The position numbers and the translations under genes were made by a program. DNA of 31,731 bases from a bacterium (GTDB lineage: Bacteria > UBA9089 > CG2-30-40-21 > SBAY01): positions 1 to 31,731 of the forward strand of contig JBFLYA010000017.1 of assembly GCA_040757115.1 (NCBI GenBank), in the 5' to 3' direction. The notes under the pieces are model-generated. The model was not told the DNA's origin. It worked only from the letters and a program-made list of their open reading frames with translations, and did no database searches. Of the stretch, positions 1,532 to 31,731 are shown piece by piece (within the stretch, counting starts at the first letter, position 1; each line of letters begins with the position of its first letter).

Positions 1532-2007
1532 TTGTTCTAAAAGCTACAGTATCAAGGCAAATTGAGGAGATTGAAAAACTCTATGTTAGGATTGAGGACC
1601 GTAAACAAAAAAGAGGTAAATCAGGAATAGAAAGTCTTGCTTATCAACTACATAATCTCTATTGTGCCTTTGAAGACCTTTTTAAGATTGTGACTGATAG
1701 TTTTGATAATCATATCCAGAACAAAACCCATTACCATATAGAATTGCTAAGACGGATGACGATGACTATTGAAGGTATTCGACCAGCACTAATTTCTCAA
1801 GAAAATTATGAGTTATTGGATAATCTCAGAGCATTTAGACATCTTTTTCGGCATGCTTATTCTTATGAATTGGATGAAAGAAAAATAAAGATAGTTTTAG
1901 CCGACGCCATAAAATTAAAAAAACGCTACCAAAATGATATTAACATCTTTTTGAAAAGTATTGAGGGGAGACGGTCATCCCCGTTGGGGCATAAAGGAAG
2001 AAGATGA
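1513..2007 (+). CDS. HepT-like HEPN-domain protein, probable ribonuclease toxin
   Basis: The 164-residue, mostly helical product begins inside the 3' end of the nucleotidyltransferase gene. Its key segment, at residues 106-118 (RAFRHLFRHAYSY), contains the HEPN R-x4-H signature (Arg109, His114) with Tyr116 two residues on. In HepT toxins this arrangement forms the RNase site and the tyrosine accepts AMP from MntA. The preceding EGIRPALISQENYELLDNL is typical of the HepT-like subfamily that pairs with MNT proteins, as far as I recognise it. The last 13 or so residues (GRRSSPLGHKGRR) are unlike the helical body, and their DNA (about 1969-2004) resembles the repeat-rich intergenic DNA. The original stop may have been lost and the frame extended. 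Size and gene order fit a type VII toxin-antitoxin system. An alternative is a HEPN protein without toxicity. Confidence 0.8.
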   Translation: MDKEGLVVLKATVSRQIEEIEKLYVRIEDRKQKRGKSGIESLAYQLHNLYCAFEDLFKIVTDSFDNHIQNKTHYHIELLRRMTMTIEGIRPALISQENYELLDNLRAFRHLFRHAYSYELDERKIKIVLADAIKLKKRYQNDINIFLKSIEGRRSSPLGHKGRR

Positions 2008-2264: not shown

Positions 2265-2273
2265 GGAGAAGAG
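2265..2273 (+). promoter_or_regulatory. Ribosome binding site of the giant gene
   Basis: GGAGAAGAG directly precedes the ATG at 2274, with GGAG ending five bases before it. The frame has a stop (TAA) at 2223-2225 and no ATG between, so this site fixes the start codon. Confidence 0.65.
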
Positions 2274-2360
2274 ATGAGTGGTTATTTTAAAAGTAAATTA
2301 GTTAGTTTCATAGTCATAAGTGGTATTGGACTGTTTTTATTTAACTCCAATGTTTGGGCG
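2274..2360 (+). other. Signal peptide of the giant protein
   Basis: Residues 1-29 show a Lys-containing N-region (MSGYFKSK), a hydrophobic core (LVSFIVISGIGLFLF), then a polar C-region ending SNVWA before ATT. Cleavage is expected after Ala29, which satisfies the small-residue rule at -1 and -3 (Val, Ala). No lipobox cysteine is present. The protein should therefore be exported by Sec and not anchored as a lipoprotein. Confidence 0.8.
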
Positions 2361-5300
2361 GCTACAACATTGTCCGTAGATTATATTAGTGGACCTGAGG
2401 TTCTCTACGATTCTACTACTGCCGGTCCCTCTCTTTTCACTCTGGGAGTGGCGATAAGAAACACGGGTGGTGAATCTGCCAATAATGTTATAGCTGTTTT
2501 AGATTTTGCCCCATCGGGTTCCTGGACTTATGGTTATGGAGAGGCAACCAGTAGCGGAACGATTACCTCCGGAACTGCTAGCCGAAGTTTTCTCACTCCA
2601 TTATCTCCTAATGCTACCTATACTGCCTTTTGGACAGTCAAATATCCTTGTCTCTCAGAGGGGGTTGTTCATACCTTTACCGTTACAGTAAGAGCTGATA
2701 ATGCCTCTCCCATAGTTTATAATGGCACACTTACGACTCACAATGTCGCAGCTACAGGTGTTGGTGGGACTCCAGTAGGAACATTACAAGGGATTGCAGG
2801 TGGAATTTTAGAGTTTGTGGTTACCTACGACTATGGTAATGTGGGAGCTAGTAATGCTGTTTATGTTCAACCTACAGGAAATAAAGTTGCAGTTGGTGCT
2901 ACTCCAGAGATAATTTTTGATGCCTCTATGTATCGGTTAACAGAAATATGGGGAACATATACCTATACAGATCTTTCTCCCTCTCCAGGGACATTTAGTG
3001 ATAAATTATACTTCCCAGCAGGTTTTCTTGGAAATGCTGCTTTTCTAACTGCCCATTATAAATTCCTTTGTCTGGCAGAAGGGCAAAACCGTGTAGTTCC
3101 GTATGGTGCGAAGGTAGGTGCGCAAAATCAATATAATAACTCATATAATGATGAGACTACTTATGTTACTTTACAGGGGAGCGTGACTTTGACATTAAAC
3201 AAATTTGTAGATTTTGGGACTATTACCCCAGGCGGGACACTTACCTATACCATTGTCTATAAAAATACCTCCGGCACTTATACGGCTAATTATGTTAGTA
3301 TTACGGATGTTATCCCAGCCAGCACTACTTATATCAGCCTTACCGGAAATGGTACTTATAATCCTACAACTAACAAGATTACCTGGGATATTGGGAGTAT
3401 TGGAACAAATACTCAAGGCACGGTAACTTTTAAGGTCAGGGTGAACAATGTTGAGGCGGGGACAATTACCAATATAGCTGAATTATACATTGCCGATAAT
3501 GCCAGCCCTACACTTGTTGCCAGTGTTACCACGACGGTTTATAATGTGCCGCCAGTAATTCAAGTTATCTCACCCAATGGTGGTGAATATTGGAGTGGAA
3601 CAAATACGATTAAATGGACATATTTTGATAGCAATGGCACAACGACTATTGGTTATGTGATAGCCTATTCTACGGCAGGAACTACCTGGATAGACATCAC
3701 TACCGGGACAGTAGCTGGCTTGGCACAAATAGGCACTTCAACTTATGACTGGAATGTTGGAACTCAGACAGATGGCACTTATACCATTCGTGTTGTTGGA
3801 ACTGATACCTATACAGGTGATTTAGGTCCTGCGCCTGGTAGAGGGACAGATACATCGGATGCCTATTTTACCATTGATAATACAGCACCACAAGTAACGA
3901 TTACTTCACCAACGATGAATAGTCCAGCGACAAAGTCAGCGGGACAAACAGTAAATATCTCCTTTAATTATACCGAATTTAGCCCTCAAACCTATACTGT
4001 CCGAATTTTTAATGGGGCGACGGTGATTGGAAGTAAGACAGTGAGTTCAGGATTAAACCCTGGAACGAATGTTGCTACCTCAACGGATGTATCTCTTTTG
4101 CTGACGGCTCAGAGTGGTTCCTACACCGTAGAGGTGGTAATGATAGATAACTTTGGTAGAACTGGCACAAGTAGTGAAGCAGGGGCGGTCCAGGTTAGAA
4201 ATCCAAAGGTAGAAATAGTCAGCACTGTCCCGACTAAAATTATTGATAATGAAAGCGATGATTTATTGAAAATAAGTATCTTCAATAACACCCCTACCTC
4301 ACCAATCGAATGGGCAAAGGTGGATATTAAATTTACTACCAATGGCACAACACCAATTACTGGAACTGAAGCGAGTAATTTATTCTCGCAGTTATGGATT
4401 GCCGTGGATAATGGTGATGGTATTTTTACTTATTTGGTTGACGATGTTCCGGCGACATCTACAACCGATTTTTCCTCTCTGGGCACAAGTGGGATTTTGT
4501 CTATAGTTTTCAATGATGGAGATTCAAATCTTCAAATAAGTTCTGGGGCAACAAAGACTTTCTTTGTCGTCCTCCAGGTAAAGCAGGATGCCAGTGCTCA
4601 AGGGACAAAGACATTTGTCGTCTCGATGGATGAAAACGGCACGCAAGGCACCAGTAGTAATTTAGAGTTCATTGTTGATGATGATGGGCTATCAGACAAT
4701 CCTCTGGTTTTAGAGCAAGAAGGGGCTGAGTTAGTTAGTTCTACTCAATGTGCCGCTGTACCAGAAGACCCAACTATAACCGTAACTGATACCGCCCCTA
4801 CTACCTTAAAAGATGGCAGTATTGATGATATTTTAAAGATAGCGGTTAAACATAATAGCAGTTCTCTGGCAGGAAATATCGAATTTGCCTACCTGACGAT
4901 GAAATTTACCTCAGATGGAATCCCTCTTACCGGCACAACCACACCTCAAGCACTATTCCAGAATATATTTGTCTTTCGTGATGGCACTACTACCGGTGTA
5001 GGGAATTATGGGTCAGAGGATATTTGTGTCGCCACAGTTACTCAGGGTAGTATTAGTTTAAGTTCAAACGGGACAATGACTATTAGTTTAGCAGACCCAA
5101 GTTCTTATACGGTTACCTCCTGGGGCACTACCTCTACATACTTTTTGGGGGTTGAACTGACTCAAGGGGCAAGTGGTTGGGCAACCAGGACCTTTGCGGT
5201 GACGGTGAATGCCATAGCAGGTGATGTAGTCATTGAGGATGAAACCACTGATACTCAACTTGGGATTAAAGATAATTCCTCAGGCTCAGTGCAATCTACT

Positions 5301-20300: not shown

Positions 20301-23300
20301 ACTAAAACCTACTACTTGCAGATAACACTGCTTGGCACGGCATCGAGTAAGGCAACACGGACTTATTCTGCGACTGTAAATCCGTTAGCTGGCGATGTGC
20401 GCATAGAGGATAAACCACATGACATTAAACTCTACCTTGGTGCAGGCAGTTCTGGAGCGGCGACATCTACGACAATGACTGCTATTCCGGTAGAGCCAAC
20501 TGGAACTGTAACTTCTACCTCGCCAATTCAGATACGGGACGGGACGCAGGATGATTTACTTAAATTGGTCATTACCAACAACGGCATTTCAGGGGCAGGG
20601 ACGATTACACTGACTTATCTACGGCTACGATTTTTTGCTACTTCGACCCTTAATCAACAGCCCATACCACCGATGAGCACCCAGACAGCAGAGGCACTAT
20701 TTGAGAATGTATTTATTTACAAAGAAACAGTTAATGATGGCACCTGGACGACTGGTGATACAATCGTGGGGACGGTAAGTGATTTATCTACCTTCCTTGA
20801 TGCACAGGGGCAGGGGACTGTAACATTAGCCACTTCAACTACCTGGACACCAGCCGCTTCATCGACCACTTACTTTGTGGTGGTAGAGTTAAAGGGTTCA
20901 TCAAGTGCCGTAGCCACAAAGACATTTAGTCTAGCAATTGTTTCAAAGGAAGATGTTGCTGTCTTTGATACGACCAAAACATCTATCAGATTGAACCTTA
21001 CTGCTGATAGTACCAGCGGGACATCAAGTAAAACTACTGCCGTGCCTCAAGACCCACGGGTAGAGGTAACTGACATTGTGCCGTGGCAAAACTTAAGAGA
21101 GGGGAGTTATATGTTGCGGGATGGTGATGAGAATGCCCTTTTACGAATTAAGATTATCCATACAGGGTCATCTACTGCTGGGAGTATCGAATTTGGGACT
21201 TTAACAGTCTGGTTTGGGTCTGATACCAACACAGCGCTAACAGGCACTCGGTCGAGTGAATTATTTGAGTATGTCCGTATTCATTTAGATGGGGATAATA
21301 GTGGAACATACACCGCAGGCTCAGACCTAATTTCTGTTGGCACTATGCCACTTACCCTAACAAATGGTTATGGGACAATTACCTTTACTGAGACAAATGA
21401 TGTTCAAGTCTCAGGTGCTGGGTCAAAGACTTACTTCCTGGTAGTCAAGTTAAGAGGGATTTCTACCGCTAAATTACCAAAGACATTTTTTGCCAAAATA
21501 GGAACATCATCAGTTGGAATTCGTGATGCAACAAGTAACTTATCCTTACCATTAGACTCAGCCAGCTATGGTAGCCAATCGACCATAGTCTATGCAGTGC
21601 CGGTTGACCCGACCGTTAAGGTTTATAACACGATAAGTGCAAGCAGTCCGTATCAGATAGATGGCACTTTTGAGGATTTACTACGGATAGAAATACAGAA
21701 TAACGGTAGTCCCACGACTGAGGCAATTGAATTTGCCACCTTGACTGTGAAGTTCACGGATAAAGATGGTAATCCAGTAGCCAATTCCACGGCAAAGAAT
21801 TTATTCAAGAATATCTTTATCTACCTTGATAATGGAGATGGCGTGTATAACCAGGGTTCAGATATTGTGCCGATTGGCACGATTACTAACGCTCAATTAT
21901 CATTAGATGCCGCAGGTTACCAGATAATTAACTTTACTGATAATGACTTAAATGCGACTATTGCCAGTAGTACTACGCGGAGTTACTTTTTAGTAATTGA
22001 ATTGCGTGGCACGGCGTCTGGTTATGCCAGCAGGACATACAGCGCTGAGGTTGGAACGGCAAATGTAACTATCAAAGATACTATCCACAACATTAAATTA
22101 TATTTAGACCCGGCGAGTATTGGAGCAAAATCAGGCACTATGACCGCTATCCCGATTAGTGCTACGGTTACTATAACCAATATTATCTGGCGAACAGACC
22201 CACGAATACCAGGGACAGTTACCCCACCGGTGCAAATGACCGAAGGAGAAAAGGACGCCATCTTCTTGATTGAGATAACCAATAATGGTGGTTCTGGTGC
22301 AGGTGCGATTGAATTTGCAACATTGACCGTATGGTTTGGAAGTAATACCATGATGGCATTAACGCAGGCACAGGCCGCGGCTATCTTCGGCACATTCAAT
22401 GTCTATCTTGATGTGGATAATGATGGGACATACAGTTCAGGAATAGATACTGTGCCAATTGGCACCTTCACTCGAACGGAATTTACTGCAGATGGCACAA
22501 TGAGTATCAGATTGCAGGATAATAGTCCTTATGCTACGGTAACTCCAGGGGCGACAAAGAAATATTTCCTTGTCGTAGAATTAGTTGGCACTTCAAGTAG
22601 TGCCACTCCGAATACCTTTGTTGCCAGAGTAGATGCGGATGCAGATTGTTCGATAGAGTCGGCTTATGATGATATTCTTATTAGCGTTGGCTCTACGGAA
22701 GCAACCTATTCTACACAGGTGGTCATTACCGGCACAGCCTCACTACCTAAATTAATCGTTACGCCTATTACGATTAATACCGGTATTGCTGATACCAGGG
22801 ATAAAGAGATTTTAAAACTAACTTTAATCCATCAAGGCGATGCCAATGAGGCGGCAATAGAATTCAGTCAGGTGAATCTCAGATTTACATATTCAGATGG
22901 TAATTTGATGACTACTGACAAGGCACAAAGGCTATTTGACTACATAGCAATTTATTATGATGAGGGTAATAATGGGGTTTATGATAGGGGTGCGGATAGG
23001 AACATAAGTCAGCATTTACCGTCTTCGATGATTAATGGGTCATTGACATTTACCTTTGAAGATGGGTCGTATTCCACGCGGATTAAACCATCAGGTAGTA
23101 GTCTTCCTAATTCAATCAACGCTACTGCTACCTACTTTTTGGTCATAAAGTTAAAGCCAGATGCCAGTGGCACAAGTAATAAGCAGTTCTATGTGAATAT
23201 AGATACTGATAATGCACGAGTAGAGGATGCGGATACTGATGACAAATTATACCTGGCGATTGAAAGTCAGTCAGGGACATCCACTTTGATTACGCCAGTG

Positions 23301-26300
23301 CCAATTGACCCACGAGTAACGGTGATAAATCAAGCCCCTGTTCCAACGATGCGCGACCTGGATATGAACGATATTTTAAGTATTACCTTACATCATTTAG
23401 GCACACCAACTTCAGGTGATGGTTGGTTTGCTACCCTGACTGCTACTTTTAAAGCCTGGCAAGGTCCTCAAGGTACACCTATACCGATGGCAACTGAAAC
23501 ATTCTATGCCTTATTTGGAACGATTAGTGTGTATCTGGATGAGGGAACGCAGACTGAAGGCGGAACATGGACTCTAACTGATACACCTATTTTAACCATC
23601 CCTGCGGCAAATTTTACTACAACAGGAAGTTATACCATTACCTCCGGCGGCACAATGACCATATTTATACCTAAAGGAACGGATACTCGGTTATCACCGG
23701 TTGGCGGTAGTTATCCGGCTACAAGGACTTATTTTCTCGTTGTTTCAATTAAGGACACCGCCAGCGGGCATGGAAGTGATAGTTTTGTCGCCACAATACA
23801 AGAAGCCGGAACGGACACTGATTCGATTAGAGATGTTTTATGCCGTGAGTGGGAAACAGATTCAGCGATGTTGATGTCCTATGGCAGTAGCTCAGCCAGT
23901 CCCGGTTCTGTAACTATTAGTGGCACGATTACCTGCATCCCGGTTGACCCGGAGGTAGTGGTAACCGATACTGTGCCACTTTTGCCTCTGCAATCGCCTG
24001 CCCGAATGCGTGACCTGGTGGATATAGACGATGTCTTGCGGATAATGATTATTAACAAAGGCACACCCACGGCTGGGAAGGTAGAGTTTGGCACAGTGAC
24101 CGTCTGGTTTGGTAGTGATGCCAATACACCGTTGACCTCTGCCCAGGCAAAGGACTTGCTTGGCACAATTACAGTAGTCCGTGATGTAGATGGTAATGGT
24201 TCGTTCACGACGGCAGATGATACGGCTGTTATTGGCACATTAACTGCCAGCCAGATTACTACGGATGGCACCTGGACTATCCCGCTGTTAGAAAATAGTA
24301 GTGCAGTGGTGGAAGCAGGTACACAAAACGCCTTCTTTGTGGTTGTCCAGCTAAAGGATTCTGCCAGCGGGACACAGACCAGGACATTTGTGGCAAGGAT
24401 TGCAACGGCTACACTGATTGAAATACGGGATGAGGCAACTAACTACGCCTTACCAGTAAGTGGCACACCAGCGATCTCAGGTCAGGTAAAAGCTATTCCT
24501 GTTGACCCAACTGGACAAGCCTTTGATACCGCTCCTTTGTGGATGTTTGATAATCAAAAGGATGATTTACTTAGATTGAAGATAACCCATAATGGTGTTC
24601 AACGGGCAGGAACGATTAGTTTTGGGACATTGAGTATCGGATTTTTGAAAGACCCTGCAGTATTTTTATCATTGGCGGATATGCAGGCACTATTTGGGAC
24701 AGCCAGTATATATTGTGATAATGGTGATAATGTGTATGATAGTGCTTTAGATACTACTTCCATAAAGACTATACTTGCAGGAGACTATGGTAGTTCCTTC
24801 TTAGGAGGCACACTTACCTTTGTATTTAGTGATGCGGATGTAAATACGGAAATTGGTGGTGCGGGCTCCAGAACCTACTTTTTGGTTGTAACGATGCTGC
24901 ATGATGCCAGTGGCTATGCCACCAGGACATTTTTGGTGCAAGCAGATATGGACCAGGATGCAAAAGTAGAAGATGATAGAGATAACATACGCTTGAATTT
25001 AATAGCTACTCCATTAATCACATCAACACAGGTTATCCTTATCTTACCTGAAAATCCGACGGTATATGGTTCGGATACAGCACCCTCTACCCCAGCTACA
25101 ATGGAAGAAGGGGAAAAGAATGATTTGTTAACCATCCAGATTAAACATAACGGCACACCTGAAGCAAGACCGATTGAATTTGGCACATTGAGTTTGCATT
25201 GGACACGGGATGGTGGCGTAACACCACTTACTGATGCTCAGGCACAACGATTGTTTAAGAATATCTTTATCTATCGTGATGTGAATGATAATAAGGTATA
25301 TGAACCGTTGATAGATACAGTGGCTATAGGCACGGTGACTTCAGGGAGTATTACATTAACTAATGGGTCGATGACTATTGTTATGGCAGATTATTCAGTA
25401 GGGGGAACATACACAAGTTGGGTATCAGCAGGGTCAAAGACGGCATTTTTTGTAGTGGTAGAGTTGACCGATGATGCTCGAGGTGCACCGGTAACTACCT
25501 TTGATGTTGAGGTTTATGGTTCAACATCATTTGTAGGGACAGATACTACGGTGGGTATTCGGGATTCAGAGGCAAATGTGCCACTTTATATCTATTCTTC
25601 AGGACTACCCGTCAGGTCAAAGACGGTAAGTGTCTATGAAATTCCTGAAGCAATAACCATTATCTATCCTCATAGTGATGAGGTAATTGTTGGCACTATA
25701 ACTGCTGATGCAGTGGCTTATGGTGATGCGGATAAGGTGTATTTCTGGGTTGAACAGATAGGAACTACTACCTACTGGAATCTACAAGGTAGTAGTGGTT
25801 CGAAGACAATAGATAGTTATCGTGCAGATGGTTGGAATGCATATTGGACTACAAAGGCATTTTCAGATGGCACTTGGACACTCTGCGTAGAGTCATTCAA
25901 TCAGTATAATTCCTCAATGGCAACCGATTCTGTGAGGATATTCATTGATAATACCCCGCCAGTAGGCACAATTACCATAGAAGCAGGTGCAACTTATACC
26001 ACTACACAAGATGTGATATTAACACTTACCTATTACGATAATATTGCGGGTGTGGATTTGGTGAGATATGGGACAGATGGCACGAACTGGCTGGAATGGG
26101 AATCACCAACTTTGACAAAGATTTGGACACTATCGGCAGTTGAACGCACTCATACTATCTGGTATCAACAAAAGGATAAGGTAGGCAATATCGGCACAAA
26201 GACTTCTGATTCAATTTACTTAGACTTAACTGCACCTGTCGGCACTCTGACCATTAATCAAGATGCAGTCTATGCTACCACAACGGCGGTTTTACTCAGC

Positions 26301-29300
26301 TATACCGTAGAGTCAGATACAACAGGGATAAGATTTAGTAATGACCTGGTGGTCTTTAGTTCCTGGGGAACACCAACTATTCCTACGGGCACACAAGCCT
26401 GGACATTATCTTCTGGTGATGGGTTAAAGATAGTTTATATGCAATTACAGGATGCCGCAGGCACAATCACGACGGTGCGAGACTTGATTATCCTGGATAC
26501 GCAAGGACCTGGTTGCACAGTAGTTATTGATGAACACGACCTCTATACACGCAATGCTACCGTAACATTGACTATCTCTGCCTACGACCCGTTCTCAGGA
26601 CTGGGGAGTATGAGATTTTCCAATGACAATAATAGTTGGTCTTCATGGGAAACATACTATACAGGGACTAAGTCCTGGAGTTTAACTACCGATGCAGGAG
26701 GAACTGCAACTAACGGCACTCGACGGGTATATGCCCAATTTAGAGATAATGCAGGTAATATATCTGCTACCTATACCGATAAGATAGTTTATGATACCCA
26801 GCCACCTATTCCTGGTAGTGTAGTCATAAATGGTGGTGCGGCATATTCTACCAGCAAACGGCTTGAATTTGACTGGTCTGGTTTTACCGATGCCACTACA
26901 GAAATAAAAGGATACTACTATGCCTTTACCGATGGTGCTGGAACCACAACCGGGACATATACTACGGCTACCTCTGGCAGGCTTTATGGCGCAGCCGAAG
27001 GCACTGTCACTGTATATGTTTGGGCAGTAGATACGGTTGGCAATATTGGCTCTTCCTGTAGTGATTCTATCTTTGTAGATACTGTATCGCCAGTAGTCAG
27101 TAATGTCAGCATCAATGGTGGAGCGGTCTATGCTACAACTACTATTTTGACCTTTAGCTGGGCTGGCACAGATACAACCCCTGCCTCTGGAGTTAAAGGC
27201 TATTATTACTCATTTGAGAATAATGGTGGTAGTAAGAATGGTGTATTTACTACATTACTTACCGGCACACTAACGACGCCACTCCAAGGCACAGTTACTA
27301 TCTATGTTTGGGCAGAAGACAATGCGGGCAATATCGGGACATCTGCCGCTGATACAATTATCGTTGATGTCTCACCACCTGTTGGTCAATTGTCTGCTGA
27401 TAAGACTTATGTGAAACAAGGCGATACAGTTACCTTCTACTATAATCTTAAGGATTCACAGAATATTACCTCAGTTCAGATTTTAGCGGATGAGTTGAAG
27501 AAGATAGATGGTAGTGCCAGCTCAACACTTGACTTAAGAGACAATGGGCAAGGGGCGGATTTGGTTGCTGGCGACTATATCTTTACCGGCACTCATACTA
27601 TCACCGGGACGGCAAGTGATGGGTTAAAAGAAATCTATGCCACAGCCACAGATTCTGCTAATAATGTATTTACTTCAAAGGTAAAGATTACGGTTGATAT
27701 GACACGACCAGTGATTAATTGGGTGCAAATTAATCAAGGAGCAACCTATACCACAACCAACTTCTTAGATATAGTTTGGGTAGGTCAGGATACAACTTCA
27801 GGGATTGCCTGGTACTATTATTCATTCAGGGATGGTTCTGGGACTACACAGGGCTTGATGACTACAGGAACAGCAACACAACTGGGCACTACTACGCAAG
27901 GCACAATCACTGTTTATGTCTGGGCAATGGATAATGCCGGCAATATTGGCGGCTCAAATTATGATAGTATCATTATGGATACCCAGGGACCAGTGGTGAA
28001 TATTACTGCACCTGCGACCGGGGTAATTCGTCGGGGAACAGTATCAGTTATATTCACTGGTGTAGATTCAATTGTGAGTATTTCTGGGACACCGACCATT
28101 TATATTGATGGAGCGACTTACACTACACAATGGTGGCCACCTAATGGCACATATACCTGGCTAACTTCTAATTTTAGCGATGGCAGTCATATCTATAAGA
28201 TTCGGGCAATAGATACTTTAGGAAATATAGGGGAATCGGAACTGCAGGTATTAATTATTGATAATTCAGCACCTGGCGCACCCATTTTAGCTCAGCCGCC
28301 ATCTCCTACACGCTTTGCTACGATTACTATAAACGGGACAGCAGAAGGTTCATCTACCGTTACCCTTTACCTTAATAGTGTAGAATATGGGACGGTGAGT
28401 GCTTCTAATTTGGGGACATTTAGCCGTTATGTAGTTCTTTCACAACAAGGGTCAAATACCATCACGGCACGAGCCACAGACCTACTCGGTAACGGGCCAG
28501 GATTGGAGTCATTGCCAGTAGTGGTTGTCTATGATTCTGGCACACCGAGCCTTACCTTAGGAACTGTAGAGCCTGGCAGTTCCAATAATGTTGCTATTTT
28601 GGGGACAGCGACAGATTTAATTACTGCTGTGCGGGTGGAGTATCAACTCGATTCTAATCCTGCCTGGATTTCGGCTACGCCAAATGATGGCGTATTTGAT
28701 TCCGGCACAGAGGCATTTACCATATTCCTATATAATTTAGCCGATGGCACACATACCGTTGTGGCAAGGGCAATTGACCAGGCAGGGAATATTTCATCCA
28801 GCCAGACCTGGACATTCCAGATAGATACTACGGGTCCTGTGACGACCAATCTTAGTCTATCTGCCATTGTAACTAATAGCACGATTACTATTTCCGCCCA
28901 AATTACAGATAGCCTTAATCCCGTAGTTGAGGCACGATTCTATGTCGATACCTATCCGTCAACCGGGACATTAATGGTCGGCACAGGTAGTCTAAGCAGT
29001 CCTGTTTATGGCACACTAAATATTAGTAATTTAGCAGATGGCACGCATCTCCTCTATGTGCGTGGTAAGGATAGTCGTGGTAACTGGGGTAGTCCGCAGT
29101 CAACTATCTTCATTGTGGCAAAGGCAAATATTGTGGTGGTAGTTAATCCAGTGAGTCCTGACCCGCTGGGGACGACTACCTTGCGAAGTACGGGTTATGC
29201 CGCAGATTCAACCGCTAAGATTACCTCTTTGAATTGGACATTAATTAGTAGCACCGGGACGATATTAGCAAGTGATTCTATCTTGCCTAAAGATGGCACC

Positions 29301-31731
29301 TTTGATGAATTAGAGGAGGAGTTTGATTTTGGCACGGTGTCATTATGGCAGGGGACTTTGACAATGTCCGTGCGGGCAGGTGATGAGGCAGGAAATTACG
29401 GGACGGGCTCAGATACCTTTGTCATCGATATTGGCACGTCTACGATTGAATTAGGAACTATTCCGTCACCTGCAACAACTAATGATGTCTCCATTTTAGG
29501 CACGGCATCAGATACACTTACAACTATCACTACGGTAAAATATCGCCTGGATTCTGGTAATTGGTTAGTGGCATCTGCTAATGATGGTATTTTTGATGAG
29601 GCGATGGAAACCTTTACTATTTACCTCTACGAACTATCAGAAGGAACACATACCGTCAGGGTAATTGGTGTTGATTCAGCCGGGAATGAATCTATGGAGA
29701 AGACCTATTCATTCCAGATAGATACACGAGGACCTACCGTATCAAATATTCAAGTGAACTCTAACCCAACTAATGCTACGGCTACCTTAAGTGCTACTTT
29801 GACAGATTCGCTAAACAATGTTTCATCAGCAGAATTCTATATTGATACTTACCCAGGGACAGCAACAGCGATGGCAGGTGTGTTTGGTAGCCGCACAGTA
29901 AATGTAACAGGCACTATTTCAATTACAGACCTTGCTGAAGGTCAGCATCTGGCATATATTCGTGGTAAGGATAACCTTGGTAACTGGGGTGATGTAGGCT
30001 TTATTTTATTTACGGTAGATAAAGGCGGGTTATTTGTTTATGTTACGCCAGTATCCCCAGACCCGGCAGGGACCACTACCGTTACAGTGAAAGGTTATGT
30101 GCAGGATGGAAGTGTGGTGATTAGTGCCATTGCCTGGCGATTGGATAGTGGTACCTGGACTTCGCTACCAGGTCCATTTGGAGACCTTAAAGAGGATTTC
30201 TCTATTCAGGTTGGAGTTACTACTGATGGTCCTCATACGGTTACAGTGCGTGGGACAAATACTGCGGATAGTTCTGCCGAAGGATATGATACATTCGTTA
30301 TAGACCGAGGGACTCCGAGTATAACTTTAGTTTCATTGTCAGGTGTGGTAGGTAATGACATCAATCTAACAGGGACTGCAACGGACAGCACAACTAAGAT
30401 AGTTGATGTCCGATATAAGATTGATACTGGCGCCTGGAACTCTGCTTCTTCGATGGATGGTGCGTTTGATGAGGCAACGGAGACATTTACTATCGCCCTG
30501 GTTGAATTACCTGAAGGCACACATACACTTACTGCGCGGGCAGTAGATGAGGTGGGAAATTACAGTAGTGAGGTTGTTAGAATATTTTGTGTAGATACCA
30601 GAGCACCTGAGGTAAATATCTATGCAGTAGATGGTGCTACCCCTGGGTCAAAGGTATTGGCAGGCACGGTTGATGTGGCATTTATCGCTTATGATACCGT
30701 TACTTCGCTTATCGGCACTCCAACCATATTAGTTGATGGTAACAATTGGGGTTATGCACAGGTCTGGACTTCTACTACCGGCTATGGCACTTATTCCTGG
30801 AATACAACCTCCTTACCCGATGGTGCTCATACATTACAGGTGATGGCAACAGATACAGCGGGTAATGTTGGTTATTCTTCCTTAAGGACAGTCATTGTTG
30901 ATAATGTTGTTACCAGTGTTATTACGATTACCAACCCTGTGTCTGGCTCACGAGTCTCTGGGACAGTAACTATCAGGGTTTCAGCACCTGCAAATACCCA
31001 GTATGTTCGATTCCAGGTAGGGACGGAGGCTAACTGGTATAATCCAGTCAATGGCACAACTACGCCGCCGTGGGGAACAGATACAGATGGTAGTGATAAT
31101 TGGACATTCTACTGGCGGACGCCTCTATTCCCAGATGCCAGCAATTATAAAGTTAGAGCAATAGCTTATGCGACAGGGAGTGTGGTGCTTGGTACGGCAA
31201 CCAATACTGAGATTACGGTAGATAATACCCCAGGGACAGTAACTTTTGGCACTATACCCGCGGTTGTTTCCAGAACATTAGTAGGCACGGTAACTGCCGC
31301 TTCGGATGTTGACCAAGTATTATTTGAATATCGGAAAGAAGGAACAGTAGAATGGTATCCAATCTCTCTCGACATCTCCCCACCATTTGGTTTCTCATGG
31401 AATACACTTGGTGTAGAAGATGGGACTTATACCATAAAGGCTACACCTAAAGATACTATGGGTACAGGTACACCGAATATCAGTAATGCCTTTAAGGTGG
31501 ATAATACCGCCCCGGCATTGGTCATAACGAGTATAGATGGTGCAATAGTCGGGGCAAAGGTATTAGTTGGCACAGTAGCAGTAGTATTTACGGCACAGGA
31601 TACGACGAGCTGGATAGAAGGGACAGTGACGGTGTTGATAGATGGGAATGAGGTTGGTTCAGCGAGTTACTGGACAGCACCCAATGGCACATATACCTGG
31701 GTAACACAGAATTATCCGGATGGTGCCCATA
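2274..31731 (+). CDS. Giant secreted multi-repeat beta-domain surface protein, 3' partial (at least 9,819 residues)
   Basis: A single open frame runs from the ATG at 2274 to the window edge without a stop. The start is fixed by the upstream in-frame TAA at 2223, the GGAGAAGAG site and a Sec-type signal peptide right after it. Domains in order, by residue: signal peptide 1-29; duplicated N-terminal module 30-303; DUF11-like 304-423; Kre9/KNH-like 426-534; Ig-like 535-642; 39 units of about 183 residues 643-7790; about 21 Ig-like modules of 90-110 residues from 7791 onward, the last cut by the window. Composition is rich in Thr, Ser, Gly, Asn and Asp, with few Cys, as in extracellular beta-sandwich proteins. 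The dipeptide Gly-Thr is strikingly frequent. No catalytic domain is visible, and any anchor or enzyme domain would be beyond the window. Likely roles are adhesion, surface layer or contact with other cells. That is inference, since the central unit belongs to no family I can name. The frame is intact over 29.5 kb, which argues for selection to keep it. No downstream partner gene is visible. Confidence 0.9.
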   Translation, partial: MSGYFKSKLVSFIVISGIGLFLFNSNVWAATTLSVDYISGPEVLYDSTTAGPSLFTLGVAIRNTGGESANNVIAVLDFAPSGSWTYGYGEATSSGTITSGTASRSFLTPLSPNATYTAFWTVKYPCLSEGVVHTFTVTVRADNASPIVYNGTLTTHNVAATGVGGTPVGTLQGIAGGILEFVVTYDYGNVGASNAVYVQPTGNKVAVGATPEIIFDASMYRLTEIWGTYTYTDLSPSPGTFSDKLYFPAGFLGNAAFLTAHYKFLCLAEGQNRVVPYGAKVGAQNQYNNSYNDETTYVTLQGSVTLTLNKFVDFGTITPGGTLTYTIVYKNTSGTYTANYVSITDVIPASTTYISLTGNGTYNPTTNKITWDIGSIGTNTQGTVTFKVRVNNVEAGTITNIAELYIADNASPTLVASVTTTVYNVPPVIQVISPNGGEYWSGTNTIKWTYFDSNGTTTIGYVIAYSTAGTTWIDITTGTVAGLAQIGTSTYDWNVGTQTDGTYTIRVVGTDTYTGDLGPAPGRGTDTSDAYFTIDNTAPQVTITSPTMNSPATKSAGQTVNISFNYTEFSPQTYTVRIFNGATVIGSKTVSSGLNPGTNVATSTDVSLLLTAQSGSYTVEVVMIDNFGRTGTSSEAGAVQVRNPKVEIVSTVPTKIIDNESDDLLKISIFNNTPTSPIEWAKVDIKFTTNGTTPITGTEASNLFSQLWIAVDNGDGIFTYLVDDVPATSTTDFSSLGTSGILSIVFNDGDSNLQISSGATKTFFVVLQVKQDASAQGTKTFVVSMDENGTQGTSSNLEFIVDDDGLSDNPLVLEQEGAELVSSTQCAAVPEDPTITVTDTAPTTLKDGSIDDILKIAVKHNSSSLAGNIEFAYLTMKFTSDGIPLTGTTTPQALFQNIFVFRDGTTTGVGNYGSEDICVATVTQGSISLSSNGTMTISLADPSSYTVTSWGTTSTYFLGVELTQGASGWATRTFAVTVNAIAGDVVIEDETTDTQLGIKDNSSGSVQSTQVKAIPKDPAVVGTNTAPVNIPDGSDDDLLKITVTNTGTTTSGSIGFGTSTFRFTKDGTTALSPQDASRLFAYFYLYRDTGDGSYSSSTDSRVATYTPSLDTNGEQTFVFGTSDTNFKTDGGTATIYFLVVKLSGTASGYATDTFVAAIILAKTFDWRDKFELSTTFTPATSTQVKAIPVKPEVDVTNIAPIKICENEKDALLKIKLINPGMGGAQDIKFASVTVRFGSQTDMQLTSSQAQALFKKLYVYYDEDGNGLFGAGDIVVGSLTQSNIAGTNTIELESGTRTTVSAGGSATYLLVVELTGTASSTSPRVFMAKIKEDTDPVVRAGDTNEQLSLATSDLGTSTQVTVVSPNPDVAATSTAPSPSTMSDLQKEDLLRLTLTHKGISGSQDIRLATVTVKLTSNGSSPLDTPQAKSLFDKIIIYYDTNGIFEESDTVVGSVTNANISLDGGKQKIDLYNTADAVVSVGSPKSYFVVVELRGTASDSGVRTFAATFEPATDTTVRDNLSNIILTVNPTSSVTTAVITAQGTPTPPNVYVYDSAPASIISGEKNDLLMIKLGHTGDAKDADIEMASLKVKFTNGTPTFTELTDTEAANLFQAVYVYLDSGNNNYDESDTQVGATTTIKGSTTFTFTDGDTNVQVPKSVGTKTYLLVVKLTANANDYGTFSATIDGSKVVAQDANTDGTLTIGGYNVGTSTSLKSASADPSIVVDSTGPGTTTIDPDFGRMLNDETNDLLRLNVSHHGIPATVGLIFATVTVRFTDGNSDLSTLQAKELFENIFIYLDNGDFEFGGTDTPVATITNAQIDLSGGIQKIDLPNNSSTQIGTGATQYYFLVIDLKATATLGAINTFNAIIDGEECTLRRQDNLATHTISPTTPATSTPTTKIVMKNPTVDVDDTAPSPPTMTDGEQEDLLRIKVYHGETATTLPNVRFATLTVTFLGGKTGATLTTTEAQNLFSNVWMYLDSGNDGTYSLSSDTIRVGTATTINGVTSISVASSTNTVIAPAGSKTYFLVVQLRNDAVKASKQGTNSFAAVINSLYDPFIVEQDSGYRLTVSSPDSPVTSATVTAQGGVPTATVNVINTVPSNPYNMPDSDIDDLLRVAITHNGTTTESSMWLSQMEVVFGSWTAALTTAQAKSLFKNIYIYLDTGDNQFQTTDTLVKTIPNAEIQGTLSIAFTKTTETTIATNTTKTYFVVVELQEDASGTSTHTFNAAIDGDTQVILKDVNLEEGGTVTISATSPVTSSNVRAVPKNPQVTVSNVAPTTIKDGNENGLLRIQITHPGTKTAGKIEFATLTVRFKKPDGTPLLDTDVQALFGTVSVYYNSDTLVGSATGNAILGTLAFTFDESTSMQIEGGSSSIYFVVVSLTGTASSYGTKTFIVEVGSTTDVLIEAVSDDTLLDISLTPGSSTSVTAIPENPKVEVSTIAQAVLRDDGQPKNGLLSVKITNTGISGAGKVEWGTLTLRFTQSGGSALTGALAENLFENIYVYLDDNRDGIYTVASDTTVVGSASDVNSFINSQGYGTLTFTEGTRTQITSASYTTYFLVVELKPTASGASPKTFVGSITSTWVKVRDEQSNIELSLDGASYGSSTPAVTIIPVDPSATVTDTAKLMSNLQQKDTTKDDLLSISIGNNGTSGTGAVEFGTLGLRFFATATTSLSPTEAEALFENLFIYRDNGDGVYSTSTDTTAIATITDMTSFLNGQGYGTMAISESTNSQIQAGTSNTFFIVVELKNGASGQGTNTYFVEVGTANIGLRDAVSNIPVGLTPNSRGSVSTKVIAVPLEPSIQVIDTAPKRYSSAEPSMTDNEKEDLLRLRVTHNGVSTSRPIEFASLRVKFTQDQALTTPLTESQMGGLFKKIYVYYSTDNSYASQTDTIAIGSVTNFTNFVDTGGYGTITFSEIAETKVTGGNSKYYFLVVELTGTASFQTPRTFVTTVDADVDAAIELATSTTRIGVRPVATVSSTLVTAQSIPATASITISNTAPSPPNIKDTNADDLLSVVVTHTGDSLDAPIELATVTVLFTKDGMVSLTTAEAQSLISEVGIYYSGTRIGYTSITSNPQTINIFTGNSDPQITAGNSKTFLVVVTLQSSASGKGTRTFAVSLGQAGNNVVIQDANTQIAVPGTYTQVATSTVITPIPIDPAVSVYDSAPGSAGHLDPPTMTDGEKEDLLKLVVTHSGVSGAGTITFGTLSLRFFGTQSAGLTDSQVQSLVKTVYLFLDNGNNNYDNGGVDIDVGSCTETNVGSLTILVFDTTNPNMQFAGAGSRTYLLVVELTGTASFQATKTFGVKVDGDTDAKIMDTRDSILLSIVQVNTVSSTLVTAEKPLTGTSATVVVSDVPAPIYLKDGNTDDILRLEISHTGSSTEATLEFARLRVRFSNGAPTFTPLTTQEAQNLFDTIWVYRGTYTAGGVKIATVTSGSITLTNGIGTITFTDNDQNCWIEPGATATFFVVTNLKINASGYNTRTFAFAVNVNNGGTGTDVCVEDANMDREAAIDSNPTSATSTTTKAIPVDPSGSVTLRDIPYGSIKDRARDDILRIDITHNGTSTAEKVEFATVTVRFKRQDTLALLSNADVQALFGTVSLYCDAGKDGSFSGDEIVGSATGSAVINPLILTLIKGTSTRVTGGSYSTYLLVVELTGTASGYSPKTVLACVNESGDIKIEDSRDDINLSMSLSPGTSNSLTAVPIDPTVTATNTSPSIIKDGQKDDLISITIQNTGEVSAGKVEFATLTVWLGSNATTYLTTTQAQSLFNNIFVYYDSDSNGVYGTNTDVYAIGTVTNAGLSALNNGTLTIVLDTANQYSKVSAGSSNTYFLVFELKTTASTHTTKSFMTRFGPESYTCVRDEASDIGLPIASASQGTQSSIVWAIPVDPSATVTSSSSVYQKDTSVDDLLKVVITNNGVIGAGKIRFATLTVRFGSEATTGFTNDQAQSLFERVNVYWDSSNNGFSQAADDYSVGTTTGSSVSGTTTIVLADNSNAWINGGGTKTFYLTIKLKPDASGTASRNFVAKVNAQAGEIKIEDVICDIGLPLVGSTGEATSTPTKALPVDPSTTITPSAPATIKDLAEDDLLKMVITHNGVSTAGKIELATVTVSFYRSNMSYMSNTDAQSLFGTVSIYWDNNKDGVVDDLVKMATGTDVLANLTFTLPEGASTQIQGGTSSWYFLQVALKNNASGYEGTRTFMAAVNETSDVGIEDMREDIPLSFGFSPGTSSEVTAIPINPKVEVIDVATQTSTLKDGTNTALLKVIVTHLGVATAGKVEFSTLTVRFSEDSAGANAITTSEAQNLFGTISVYWDEGNDGYGVGMDRLIGTQSPANVSSTGSLTFVFTDGTDSTQIAGASARSYFLVVDIKATASAGSVDTLVASITSSWVGVRDGTSNISLSLDTASYGSRSTLQSIIAIDPEVEVTDSTASPWTLKDGAIDDLLQIEIKNNGVAGAGQVELGTLTVVFGSQTGMVFNANQMNSLFGSVSVYYDSTKDGFSEADFVIGSTTDFTSGGTLTISFGEEDKAEITAGTSGVYYLAVRLKQDASGTQTRNFKATIAPLSQGDVKIRDESTNIGLTLTTGSTLVASSTVCTAIPINPIATISDTAYFLPPYPGTETDDFPRLMNESQREDLLKIDITNPGTLTAGKIEFGTVTVWFGSVTTTATGFTDDQAKALFEYIFICRDDGDGTWTTTDTIIATVTKTAISLSSGSLTIGLTDNDERTWVNPGSTTTFFLVVELTSNAGTQSPRCFVAKIDNPGSDIILESAKDDIQLNIIPSAGTTSTQVRAVRIPPPPQVDITSTAPAPKMKDGSKDDILKLKIIHTGDDPLTYSWLELDKVTIKFSSNQGTLTTADAQALFSEIAIYRDLSPYDEFGGGDYQLQSDTSIGVDNNGEEVFTLSESPYVRIKPGSSTALGSGTFFITIKLKQDASGMGTETFSAYISTATTKLRIEDANTDNQLNIGTSSSQISATITAVPVEPTVIVEDSQPPIKLKDGTKDDLLRIYLHNNGIATAGRVELATLTVHITTSGTITPMASQTATMLFKNIFVYLDSGDNVYATNTDTIAVGTITNQDLSNESIFANGTLTIVLPNVGTYTEVSGGATKTYFVVVELNENASAVGPGTESFVATIKTMQDVSVRDESSKLPLDLKADSSGTVSSSLTTAVPLDPKIEVTDIVPLQNLREGSYMLRDGDENALLRVKVIHTGSSTAGRIELGTLTIWFGSETNTNLTSTQLDKLFEYICIRKDGDGNGTYSSSQDTVSVGTLTPIVLTNGYGTITFIDNNSNAQILPASSSTYFLVVKLRGTATANIPKTFVAKIGTQNVGLRDESSNLPLPLTTDSYGSQSTIVYGVPIDPVVIATNTVSFTYPYQMDGSRTSLLKIEIGNKGTSGAGSIEFATLTVRFSYDGANLLTDAEVRAIFGTVSIWETSSMITEVTGNQIKAQMNIDLPEVAATWISAGATKTYYLQITLLGTASSKATRTYSATVNPLAGDVRIEDKPHDIKLYLGAGSSGAATSTTMTAIPVEPSGTVTSTSPIQIRDKMQDDVLKLVITNNGLSGAGTITLTYLRLRFFATSTLNQQPIPPMSTQTAEALFENVFIYKETVNDGTWTTGDTIVGTVSDLSTFLDAQGQGTVTLATLTTWTPSASSTTYFVVVELKGSASAVATKTFSLAIVSKEDAAIFDTTKTSIRLNLTAASTVGTSNKTTAVPQDPRIEITNIVPLQNFRQGSYMLRDGDENALLRLKVIHTGSSTAGKIELGTLTIWFGSETNTSLTSTQLDKLFEYICIRKDGDGNGTYSASQDGVSVGTMTADLTNGYGTITFTDGDTNAQIPPAVNLGSCTYFLVVKLRGTATANLPKTFVAKIGTQNVGLRDESSNLPLPLTTDSYGSQSTIVYAVPVDPVVIATNTVSFTYPYQMDGSRTSLLKIEIGNKGTSGAGSIEFATLTVRFSYDGANLLTDDEVRAIFGTVSVWGTSSVITEVSGNQIKAQMSIDLPEVDATWISAGATKTYYLQITLLGTASSKATRTYSATVNPLAGDVRIEDKPHDIKLYLGAGSSGAATSTTMTAIPVEPTGTVTSTSPIQIRDGTQDDLLKLVITNNGISGAGTITLTYLRLRFFATSTLNQQPIPPMSTQTAEALFENVFIYKETVNDGTWTTGDTIVGTVSDLSTFLDAQGQGTVTLATSTTWTPAASSTTYFVVVELKGSSSAVATKTFSLAIVSKEDVAVFDTTKTSIRLNLTADSTSGTSSKTTAVPQDPRVEVTDIVPWQNLREGSYMLRDGDENALLRIKIIHTGSSTAGSIEFGTLTVWFGSDTNTALTGTRSSELFEYVRIHLDGDNSGTYTAGSDLISVGTMPLTLTNGYGTITFTETNDVQVSGAGSKTYFLVVKLRGISTAKLPKTFFAKIGTSSVGIRDATSNLSLPLDSASYGSQSTIVYAVPVDPTVKVYNTISASSPYQIDGTFEDLLRIEIQNNGSPTTEAIEFATLTVKFTDKDGNPVANSTAKNLFKNIFIYLDNGDGVYNQGSDIVPIGTITNAQLSLDAAGYQIINFTDNDLNATIASSTTRSYFLVIELRGTASGYASRTYSAEVGTANVTIKDTIHNIKLYLDPASIGAKSGTMTAIPISATVTITNIIWRTDPRIPGTVTPPVQMTEGEKDAIFLIEITNNGGSGAGAIEFATLTVWFGSNTMMALTQAQAAAIFGTFNVYLDVDNDGTYSSGIDTVPIGTFTRTEFTADGTMSIRLQDNSPYATVTPGATKKYFLVVELVGTSSSATPNTFVARVDADADCSIESAYDDILISVGSTEATYSTQVVITGTASLPKLIVTPITINTGIADTRDKEILKLTLIHQGDANEAAIEFSQVNLRFTYSDGNLMTTDKAQRLFDYIAIYYDEGNNGVYDRGADRNISQHLPSSMINGSLTFTFEDGSYSTRIKPSGSSLPNSINATATYFLVIKLKPDASGTSNKQFYVNIDTDNARVEDADTDDKLYLAIESQSGTSTLITPVPIDPRVTVINQAPVPTMRDLDMNDILSITLHHLGTPTSGDGWFATLTATFKAWQGPQGTPIPMATETFYALFGTISVYLDEGTQTEGGTWTLTDTPILTIPAANFTTTGSYTITSGGTMTIFIPKGTDTRLSPVGGSYPATRTYFLVVSIKDTASGHGSDSFVATIQEAGTDTDSIRDVLCREWETDSAMLMSYGSSSASPGSVTISGTITCIPVDPEVVVTDTVPLLPLQSPARMRDLVDIDDVLRIMIINKGTPTAGKVEFGTVTVWFGSDANTPLTSAQAKDLLGTITVVRDVDGNGSFTTADDTAVIGTLTASQITTDGTWTIPLLENSSAVVEAGTQNAFFVVVQLKDSASGTQTRTFVARIATATLIEIRDEATNYALPVSGTPAISGQVKAIPVDPTGQAFDTAPLWMFDNQKDDLLRLKITHNGVQRAGTISFGTLSIGFLKDPAVFLSLADMQALFGTASIYCDNGDNVYDSALDTTSIKTILAGDYGSSFLGGTLTFVFSDADVNTEIGGAGSRTYFLVVTMLHDASGYATRTFLVQADMDQDAKVEDDRDNIRLNLIATPLITSTQVILILPENPTVYGSDTAPSTPATMEEGEKNDLLTIQIKHNGTPEARPIEFGTLSLHWTRDGGVTPLTDAQAQRLFKNIFIYRDVNDNKVYEPLIDTVAIGTVTSGSITLTNGSMTIVMADYSVGGTYTSWVSAGSKTAFFVVVELTDDARGAPVTTFDVEVYGSTSFVGTDTTVGIRDSEANVPLYIYSSGLPVRSKTVSVYEIPEAITIIYPHSDEVIVGTITADAVAYGDADKVYFWVEQIGTTTYWNLQGSSGSKTIDSYRADGWNAYWTTKAFSDGTWTLCVESFNQYNSSMATDSVRIFIDNTPPVGTITIEAGATYTTTQDVILTLTYYDNIAGVDLVRYGTDGTNWLEWESPTLTKIWTLSAVERTHTIWYQQKDKVGNIGTKTSDSIYLDLTAPVGTLTINQDAVYATTTAVLLSYTVESDTTGIRFSNDLVVFSSWGTPTIPTGTQAWTLSSGDGLKIVYMQLQDAAGTITTVRDLIILDTQGPGCTVVIDEHDLYTRNATVTLTISAYDPFSGLGSMRFSNDNNSWSSWETYYTGTKSWSLTTDAGGTATNGTRRVYAQFRDNAGNISATYTDKIVYDTQPPIPGSVVINGGAAYSTSKRLEFDWSGFTDATTEIKGYYYAFTDGAGTTTGTYTTATSGRLYGAAEGTVTVYVWAVDTVGNIGSSCSDSIFVDTVSPVVSNVSINGGAVYATTTILTFSWAGTDTTPASGVKGYYYSFENNGGSKNGVFTTLLTGTLTTPLQGTVTIYVWAEDNAGNIGTSAADTIIVDVSPPVGQLSADKTYVKQGDTVTFYYNLKDSQNITSVQILADELKKIDGSASSTLDLRDNGQGADLVAGDYIFTGTHTITGTASDGLKEIYATATDSANNVFTSKVKITVDMTRPVINWVQINQGATYTTTNFLDIVWVGQDTTSGIAWYYYSFRDGSGTTQGLMTTGTATQLGTTTQGTITVYVWAMDNAGNIGGSNYDSIIMDTQGPVVNITAPATGVIRRGTVSVIFTGVDSIVSISGTPTIYIDGATYTTQWWPPNGTYTWLTSNFSDGSHIYKIRAIDTLGNIGESELQVLIIDNSAPGAPILAQPPSPTRFATITINGTAEGSSTVTLYLNSVEYGTVSASNLGTFSRYVVLSQQGSNTITARATDLLGNGPGLESLPVVVVYDSGTPSLTLGTVEPGSSNNVAILGTATDLITAVRVEYQLDSNPAWISATPNDGVFDSGTEAFTIFLYNLADGTHTVVARAIDQAGNISSSQTWTFQIDTTGPVTTNLSLSAIVTNSTITISAQITDSLNPVVEARFYVDTYPSTGTLMVGTGSLSSPVYGTLNISNLADGTHLLYVRGKDSRGNWGSPQSTIFIVAKANIVVVVNPVSPDPLGTTTLRSTGYAADSTAKITSLNWTLISSTGTILASDSILPKDGTFDELEEEFDFGTVSLWQGTLTMSVRAGDEAGNYGTGSDTFVIDIGTSTIELGTIPSPATTNDVSILGTASDTLTTITTVKYRLDSGNWLVASANDGIFDEAMETFTIYLYELSEGTHTVRVIGVDSAGNESMEKTYSFQIDTRGPTVSNIQVNSNPTNATATLSATLTDSLNNVSSAEFYIDTYPGTATAMAGVFGSRTVNVTGTISITDLAEGQHLAYIRGKDNLGNWGDVGFILFTVDKGGLFVYVTPVSPDPAGTTTVTVKGYVQDGSVVISAIAWRLDSGTWTSLPGPFGDLKEDFSIQVGVTTDGPHTVTVRGTNTADSSAEGYDTFVIDRGTPSITLVSLSGVVGNDINLTGTATDSTTKIVDVRYKIDTGAWNSASSMDGAFDEATETFTIALVELPEGTHTLTARAVDEVGNYSSEVVRIFCVDTRAPEVNIYAVDGATPGSKVLAGTVDVAFIAYDTVTSLIGTPTILVDGNNWGYAQVWTSTTGYGTYSWNTTSLPDGAHTLQVMATDTAGNVGYSSLRTVIVDNVVTSVITITNPVSGSRVSGTVTIRVSAPANTQYVRFQVGTEANWYNPVNGTTTPPWGTDTDGSDNWTFYWRTPLFPDASNYKVRAIAYATGSVVLGTATNTEITVDNTPGTVTFGTIPAVVSRTLVGTVTAASDVDQVLFEYRKEGTVEWYPISLDISPPFGFSWNTLGVEDGTYTIKATPKDTMGTGTPNISNAFKVDNTAPALVITSIDGAIVGAKVLVGTVAVVFTAQDTTSWIEGTVTVLIDGNEVGSASYWTAPNGTYTWVTQNYPDGAH
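2361..3182 (+). other. Duplicated N-terminal module of the giant protein
   Basis: Residues 30-303 appear to be two related modules of about 130 residues each. Both begin with beta-strand text of the type VAIRNTGGESANN / VTYDYGNVGASN, and both contain a cysteine motif: KYPCLSEG (Cys126) and KFLCLAEG (Cys266). Each ends with an Asn-rich stretch. The strand pattern with a conserved Asn-x-Gly resembles CARDB/NEW3-type adhesion domains, but the match is weak. The paired cysteines are notable in a protein that otherwise has few. Confidence 0.55.
3183..3542 (+). other. DUF11-like domain of the giant protein
   Basis: Residues 304-423 show the features of the DUF11 surface repeat. PGGTLTYTIVYKNTSG is followed by a strand with VSITDVIPASTTYISL, then KITWDIGSIGTNTQGTVTF. 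The D-x-[IL]-P in the middle and the W-x-[IL]-G-x-[IL] near the end are typical of the family. DUF11 domains occur in many secreted bacterial and archaeal surface proteins and have no enzymatic role. Confidence 0.8.
3549..3875 (+). other. Kre9/KNH-like (Ser-Thr-rich membrane-anchored family) domain
   Basis: Residues 426-534 begin VIQVISPNGGEYWSGTNTI and continue with KWTYFDSNG. The SPNGGE-x-W followed by I-x-W is the usual opening of this beta-sandwich domain in bacterial secreted proteins. It closes with DGTYTIRVVGTD and the linker DTSDAYFTIDNTAP. It probably acts as a structural or carbohydrate-associated module. Confidence 0.7.
3876..4199 (+). other. Ig-like domain preceding the repeat array
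   Basis: Residues 535-642 start DNTAPQVTITSPTMNSPAT and include GQTVNISFNYTE, SGSYTVEVVMIDNFGRTG and a closing strand AVQV. This is the standard pattern of bacterial Ig-like domains: an IDN-TAP linker, a TITSP strand and a V-x-x-x-D-N-x-G turn. The same linker and turn recur throughout the C-terminal part from 25947 onward. Confidence 0.65.
17784..19415 (+). repeat. Three-unit block, copy 1 (units 26-28)
   Basis: This block of 1,632 bp is nearly identical in DNA to the next 1,638 bp. The first unit carries VPLQNLREGSYMLRDGDENA, the second NTVSFTYPYQMDG, and the third IPPMSTQTAEALFENVFIYK. These rare variants occur in the same order in copy 2, so all three units were copied together. Confidence 0.9.
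19416..21053 (+). repeat. Three-unit block, copy 2 (units 29-31)
   Basis: The second copy is displaced by 1,632 bp at its start (CCGTTGCAAAAC at 17811 and 19443) and by 1,638 bp later (ACGATTACAC at 18963 and 20601). The net indel of six bases lies in the first unit. Units 32-33 (21054-22151) begin like a third copy (GSYMLRDGDENALLRIK) but have diverged more and lack an obvious third unit. The series suggests repeated unequal exchange. Confidence 0.9.
25644..31731 (+). other. C-terminal series of Ig-like modules of the giant protein
   Basis: About 21 modules of 90-110 residues follow the large array and run off the window. Starts lie at about 25644, 25947, 26223, 26496, 26793, 27078, 27366, 27696, 27978, 28260, 28533, 28824, 29118, 29427, 29721, 30018, 30303, 30594, 30900, 31221 and 31500. 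Most open with the linker [VI]-D-[TN]-x-x-P and end with V-x-A-x-D-x-x-GN-x-[GS]. Modules at 26793, 27078 and 27696 share SGI/EIKG-x-YYY-[AS]-F and VTVYVWA-x-D-x-x-GNIG. Modules at 27978, 30594 and 31500 share a TPTI-x-[IV]-DG strand and a GTY-[TS]-W strand. These fit bacterial Ig-like domains of large adhesins. No catalytic motif is seen. Confidence 0.8.
28533..30593 (+). repeat. A-B-C module super-repeat in the Ig-like tail
   Basis: Three distinct modules recur in fixed order. A (28533, 29427, 30303) has ILGTATD, a Y-x-[LI]-D strand, a DG-x-FD loop, ETFTI and EGTHT. B (28824, 29721) has TDSLN, then a FY-[VI]-DTYP strand and a Y-[VI]-RGKD-x-x-GNWG turn. C (29118, 30018) has V-x-P-V-S-P-D-P-x-GTTT. 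The order is A-B-C-A-B-C-A with periods of about 894 and 876 bp. DNA similarity is moderate, so this duplication is older than the block at 17784-21053. Confidence 0.8.

Follow-up and report, generated by a model that had tools for sequence, protein, structure and literature searches.

Is a single bacterial reading frame of at least 9,819 codons a genuine gene, and if so, what kind of protein does it encode and how would this protein reach its place of action? The question is raised by the window, i. e. the whole stretch of 31,731 bp that was analysed, which is the complete contig C17 of a metagenome bin of 4.3 Mb (462 contigs, 99.87% complete). The frame begins with an ATG, contains no stop codon and is truncated by the contig end at position 31731, leaving its 3' end open. 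It occupies 29,457 of the 31,731 bases, in agreement with the 93% given in a sequence-only reading of this DNA, and the list of open reading frames and the contig end both bear out the claim of that reading that the frame runs stop-free to the window edge. The nearest in-frame stop upstream of the ATG lies at 2223, and the remaining five frames contain 358 to 863 stops each over the same stretch. At about 0.06 stops per codon, the chance of such a stop-free frame is about 10^-264. For the visible part of the protein, previously put at about 1 MDa, we computed a mass of 1.04 MDa; it is acidic (pI 4.4) and rich in threonine, serine and glycine. The features of the window are the following:

1175..1531, + strand: MntA-like nucleotidyltransferase, upstream neighbour, separate from the giant gene
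1513..2007, + strand: HepT-like (PF20797) HEPN protein, upstream neighbour, separate from the giant gene
2265..2268, + strand: likely ribosome-binding site GGAG of the giant gene, 5 bases before the ATG
2274..31730, + strand: giant open frame, 9,819 codons visible
2274..2360, + strand: signal peptide, residues 1-29, cleavage predicted after VWA (sequence judged by eye)
3189..3488, + strand: DUF11 (PF01345), residues 306-405, 48 bits against a cut-off of 24.6; also TIGR01451
4176..25625, + strand: 39 tandem repeats of about 183 aa, residues 635-7784, delimited with an iterated profile
17760..19391, + strand: repeats r26-r28, one copy of a three-repeat block, 90% DNA identity to r29-r31
19392..21029, + strand: repeats r29-r31, the other copy of the block, 90% DNA identity to r26-r28
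25626..31730, + strand: Ig-like tail (Big_13, Big_7 and OmpL47-type), residues 7785-9819, open at the contig end

A frame of this kind might be an artefact, i. e. the product of a chimeric assembly or an open frame in decay. The bin is a metagenome bin in 462 pieces, and in all relatives the giant gene is broken off at a contig edge or interrupted by an N gap. However, the comparison with relatives speaks clearly against this explanation: With respect to a genome of the same genus, dN/dS is 0.17 over 4,051 codons, that is along the whole compared length, and the substitutions fall mostly on third codon positions (340/248/954 for the three positions). A genome of the same family gives a dN/dS of 0.165, and the values determined repeat by repeat range from 0.08 to 0.30 for all 22 repeats tested. 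Moreover, colinear orthologues are present in independent assemblies, and no near-identical tandem array that would point to misassembly was found in the window. For the part that was compared with relatives (residues up to about 5,700), an artefact is already refuted, and for the gene as a whole we find it hardly credible. The giant gene is real and under purifying selection. The sequence-only reading had taken the absence of frameshifts to show that the gene is maintained; the maintenance stands, and it is the substitution pattern that establishes it, whereas the absence of frameshifts alone is no proof. The wider claim of that reading, a giant maintained surface gene, holds as well, with the signal peptide, which is plain in the sequence (MSGYFKSKLVSFIVISGIGLFLFNSNVWA, with A as the residue after the predicted cleavage site), the DUF11, Ig-like and OmpL47 modules, the orthology of the repeats, and the probable sorting domain on a second contig (C141) that is described below. 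We thus have a well-supported case of a bacterial protein of more than 1 MDa that is demonstrably under selection.

The central array has a history that can be read from its copies. The 39 repeats have a mean pairwise identity of 32%, and no Pfam family common to them was found. In the same-genus genome, each of the repeats r1 to r22 finds its best match in the window repeat of the same number (22/22, with 67-95% identity), and in the same-family genome this is the case for 27 of 28 repeats. This one-to-one orthology in the same order, together with the low dN/dS of each repeat, indicates that the duplications are old and that every copy has since then been retained individually and at its place in the array. 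There is one clear recent change in the array, the three-repeat block r26-r28/r29-r31, the two copies of which differ at 10% of their bases. In addition, r10 (window 9048-9551) is closer to its counterpart in another genus (76-77% identity) than to that in the same genus (67%), which suggests local recombination at this repeat; dS is raised across r10-r12. A loop of the type D..(D/N)G.(Y/F)..D occurs in 16 of the 39 repeats as compared to 0.3 expected from shuffled sequences. This is only a hint of calcium binding, and the loop is absent from most copies. Many repeat adhesins carry near-identical repeats, whereas the window gene has distinct copies that are ordered across genera; therefore, what is gained from each copy can be tested copy by copy.

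The fold of the repeat was addressed with an AlphaFold2 model based on the repeat alignment (pLDDT 93). In comparisons with Foldseek and VIA-align, the N-terminal domains of GH33 sialidases from Bacteroidota come out on top with Z scores of 9.8-13.0, against 7.2 for the next group. Several of these domains match the model at Z 12.4-13.0, the best superposition (Z 13.0) having an rmsd of 2.4 over about 138 residues, and 7.2 is also the score of the first unrelated entry. The N-terminal domain of GH33 sialidases has been described as CBM93 (Pfam PF14873), a proposed carbohydrate-binding module (PMC9472817, PMC10553830). We considered an assignment of the repeats to the CBM93 sequence family and rejected it since PF14873 does not recognise them: none of the 39 repeats is among the matches listed up to E 5, and a search of C17 with the model gave no hit at E <= 1. 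A direct search of the repeat sequence against the PDB gave nothing meaningful. As modelled, the repeats share the beta-sandwich fold of CBM93, but they are not filed as CBM93. The closely similar domain of the sialidases NanH and PG0352 is present there in one copy, as compared to 39 tandem copies in the window gene, which has no sialidase domain attached. Any binding of glycans by the repeats would be a speculative step from this resemblance. Yet the repeat is absent from Pfam and has a fold near that of a carbohydrate-binding module, and therefore its ligand can be sought directly.

A model of two repeats in tandem (pLDDT 94, pTM 0.87) points to a fixed angle between neighbouring repeats and thus to a stiff rod. 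The same fixed geometry would suit a spacer, and the array might be a passive stalk or sheath in which binding is left to the Ig-like tail or to the N-terminal domains. That the repeats match no known ligand-binding sequence family, and that the resemblance to CBM93 concerns the fold only, is in line with this possibility. We consider it a serious one, even though we would not bet on it: The copies in the window differ by 68%, and each is conserved separately across genera, which suggests copy-specific surfaces. Spacer-like behaviour can be seen elsewhere in the same genome. A second giant frame (L123, L124), located on the minus strand of contig C29 from position 2029 to the contig end, comprises 8,268 codons and is 5'-open. 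It has a strong 84-aa period with near-identical repeats, as would be expected of a spacer whose copies are kept uniform by homogenisation, and ends in the same kind of C-terminal domain as C141. The behaviour of its repeats is the opposite of that in the window gene. If the idea of copy-specific surfaces is carried to its end, the array could be an ordered reader of multiple specificities, in which 39 modules with the CBM93 fold, in fixed order and each maintained individually by selection, would each have a glycan or surface ligand of their own. This is unlikely in our view; if true, one molecule would recognise a long heterogeneous polymer or the envelope of another cell.

Where does the gene end? 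A 5'-open frame of 1,973 codons without a start is found on another contig of this genome, C141. Its Ig/OmpL47 modules resemble those of the window tail with up to 44% identity, and the modules of both match NF047446 (OmpL47-type) and PF19077 (Big_13) above the cut-offs. The frame ends with a domain resembling FlgD_ig and the PorU C-terminal domain (CTD): it scores 30.1 bits with FlgD_ig (cut-off 27) and aligns to the C-terminus of PorU. One could argue that C141 ends a different gene, and that the window gene stops soon after 31731 with another kind of anchor. Indeed, neither a DNA overlap between C17 and C141 nor a read joining them was found (at the DNA level, the final 1,732 bp of C17 have no match other than C17 itself), and these genomes contain many Ig modules. 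However, C141 is the sole contig of its own genome with strong similarity to the window tail, and its frame is open at the 5' side. Moreover, three other genomes (G001, G003 and G004) each have a 3'-open N-terminal part and a separate 5'-open part homologous to C141, and in the more distant G014, a single scaffold carries repeats, Ig-like tail and the same end domain, the tail being interrupted by an N gap. A different gene on C141 is therefore quite improbable. The similar Ig modules, the recurrent split and the single scaffold of G014 lead us to the view that the window gene very probably ends on C141, a linkage that we infer from these sequence comparisons. Joined with C141, the protein would probably have a length of no less than 11,792 aa and a mass of no less than 1.25 MDa, and the frame in the window most likely represents the N-terminal 80% or so of the giant gene. 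In G004, a 13.6 kb contig (C255, L104) consists of a single frame of 4,523 codons that is open at both ends and encodes tail modules; a long stretch of these modules seems to be exactly repeated, which is either a real duplication or an assembly effect. If C255 belongs to the gene, the giant gene of G004 may encode more than 12,500 aa.

Neither the window nor C141 yielded a catalytic or other enzyme domain in domain-model searches. We have thus dropped an enzymatic role of the giant protein, and for the same reason a role as an adhesin or scaffold appears likelier.

The end domain on C141 suggests how such a protein might leave the cell. In Bacteroidota, cargo of the type IX secretion system (T9SS) has a Sec signal and a CTD and passes through Sov/SprA; it is collected by PorV, whereas type B cargo, of which SprB is an example, has a PorP-like partner for this purpose, the gene of which adjoins that of the cargo (PMC10202324, PMC9143113). 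The arrangement here is similar in plan: Downstream of the end domain, there is a gene for a barrel protein of the PorV/PorQ family (NF033709, 112 bits, cut-off 90). Such a PorV-family gene also follows the end domain in G001 and G003. Family f1 alone was seen to have this neighbour; the end domain of G014 is followed by recR instead. Between the end domain of C141 and the PorV-family gene lies a frame for a protein of about 135 aa (L042:6308-6715) that matched no known NCBIfam family, and G001 and G003 have frames of similar size at the corresponding position. The end domain occurs at 41 places in its own genome, many of them in frames of 1,000-8,000 codons, as expected of a shared sorting signal. 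As for possible components of the secretion apparatus, a SprA/Sov-like frame of 2,011 aa is present on C74 (TIGR04189, 193.3 bits, under the cut-off of 200, E 4.5e-57), and five frames on C44, C6, C43 and C11 exceed the cut-off for Peptidase_C25 (gingipain/PorU-type), four of them with more than 2,000 codons. The partner family and the CTD model differ from those of Bacteroidota: the type A CTD model TIGR04183 does not match the end domain of C141, and the matches of the C141 frame listed up to E 0.01 include neither of the type B models (TIGR04131/PF13585). A literature search under the presumed name of the lineage found no report of a T9SS. Taken together, the giant protein is probably exported by a T9SS-like route.

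We therefore propose, as the explanation that we believe to be probably correct, a very long rod-like adhesin of at least about 11,800 aa. The protein would enter the periplasm by means of its signal peptide, and a T9SS-like system would recognise the probable C-terminal sorting domain encoded on C141 and take the protein across the outer membrane. The PorV-family barrel, the gene of which comes next, would then hold it at the surface, an anchoring that we infer from the gene order. The 39 repeats with the CBM93 fold would form a stiff rod, and this rod and the Ig-like tail together would make up a long stalk for binding to surfaces or polysaccharides.

Huge bacterial surface proteins and giant T9SS adhesins are already known. 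SprB is a giant, repetitive T9SS adhesin of 669 kDa with a C-terminal sorting domain, the gene of which lies beside that of a barrel partner (PMC9143113). The window gene together with C141 resembles it in its giant size, in its repetitive make-up, in the probable C-terminal sorting domain and in the adjoining gene for a putative barrel partner. However, the CTD of SprB is of type B and its partner is the PorP-like SprF, whereas here we find the FlgD_ig/PorU-CTD-like end and a neighbour of the PorV/PorQ family. Moreover, adhesins of the SprB type come from Bacteroidota while the window belongs to a different, small phylum, which suggests a giant T9SS-like surface protein outside Bacteroidota. 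Huge surface proteins have been described for Omnitrophota, Elusimicrobiota and Planctomycetota (PMC11573180). The window gene shares with them a length of more than 5,000 aa, surface-type modules and a poorly studied lineage, but it differs in its phylum and in having an undescribed repeat in a frozen order. As compared to proteins built of OmpL47-type and Big_13 Ig-like modules, such modules form only the tail here and not the main array. What is new is the undescribed repeat with the CBM93 fold, its order frozen across genera, and its occurrence in a small phylum.

Among 19 genomes of the same phylum, the repeat is present in five further ones, one of which has a single partial copy. Outside the phylum, one of 223 genomes has a match at E <= 1e-6. 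This single copy (L067:79-567 on G075:C135) belongs to a short protein that also has TSP3 repeats and whose hydrophobic C-terminus ends in arginine. A search for related loci with the repeat consensus resulted in SBAY01000314.1 (deposited as 'Nitrospira sp. Bin_21_1') as the sole match.

In the window, as in G001 and G003, the giant gene is directly preceded by an MntA-HepT-like nucleotidyltransferase/HEPN pair. Such pairs were found at 1175-2007 of the window, at L059:299-1555 and at L060:17277-17982, and their HEPN subfamilies differ. Finally, a small membrane-protein-like frame with a weak match to DUF1761 is present at 492-917 of the window, upstream of the giant gene.
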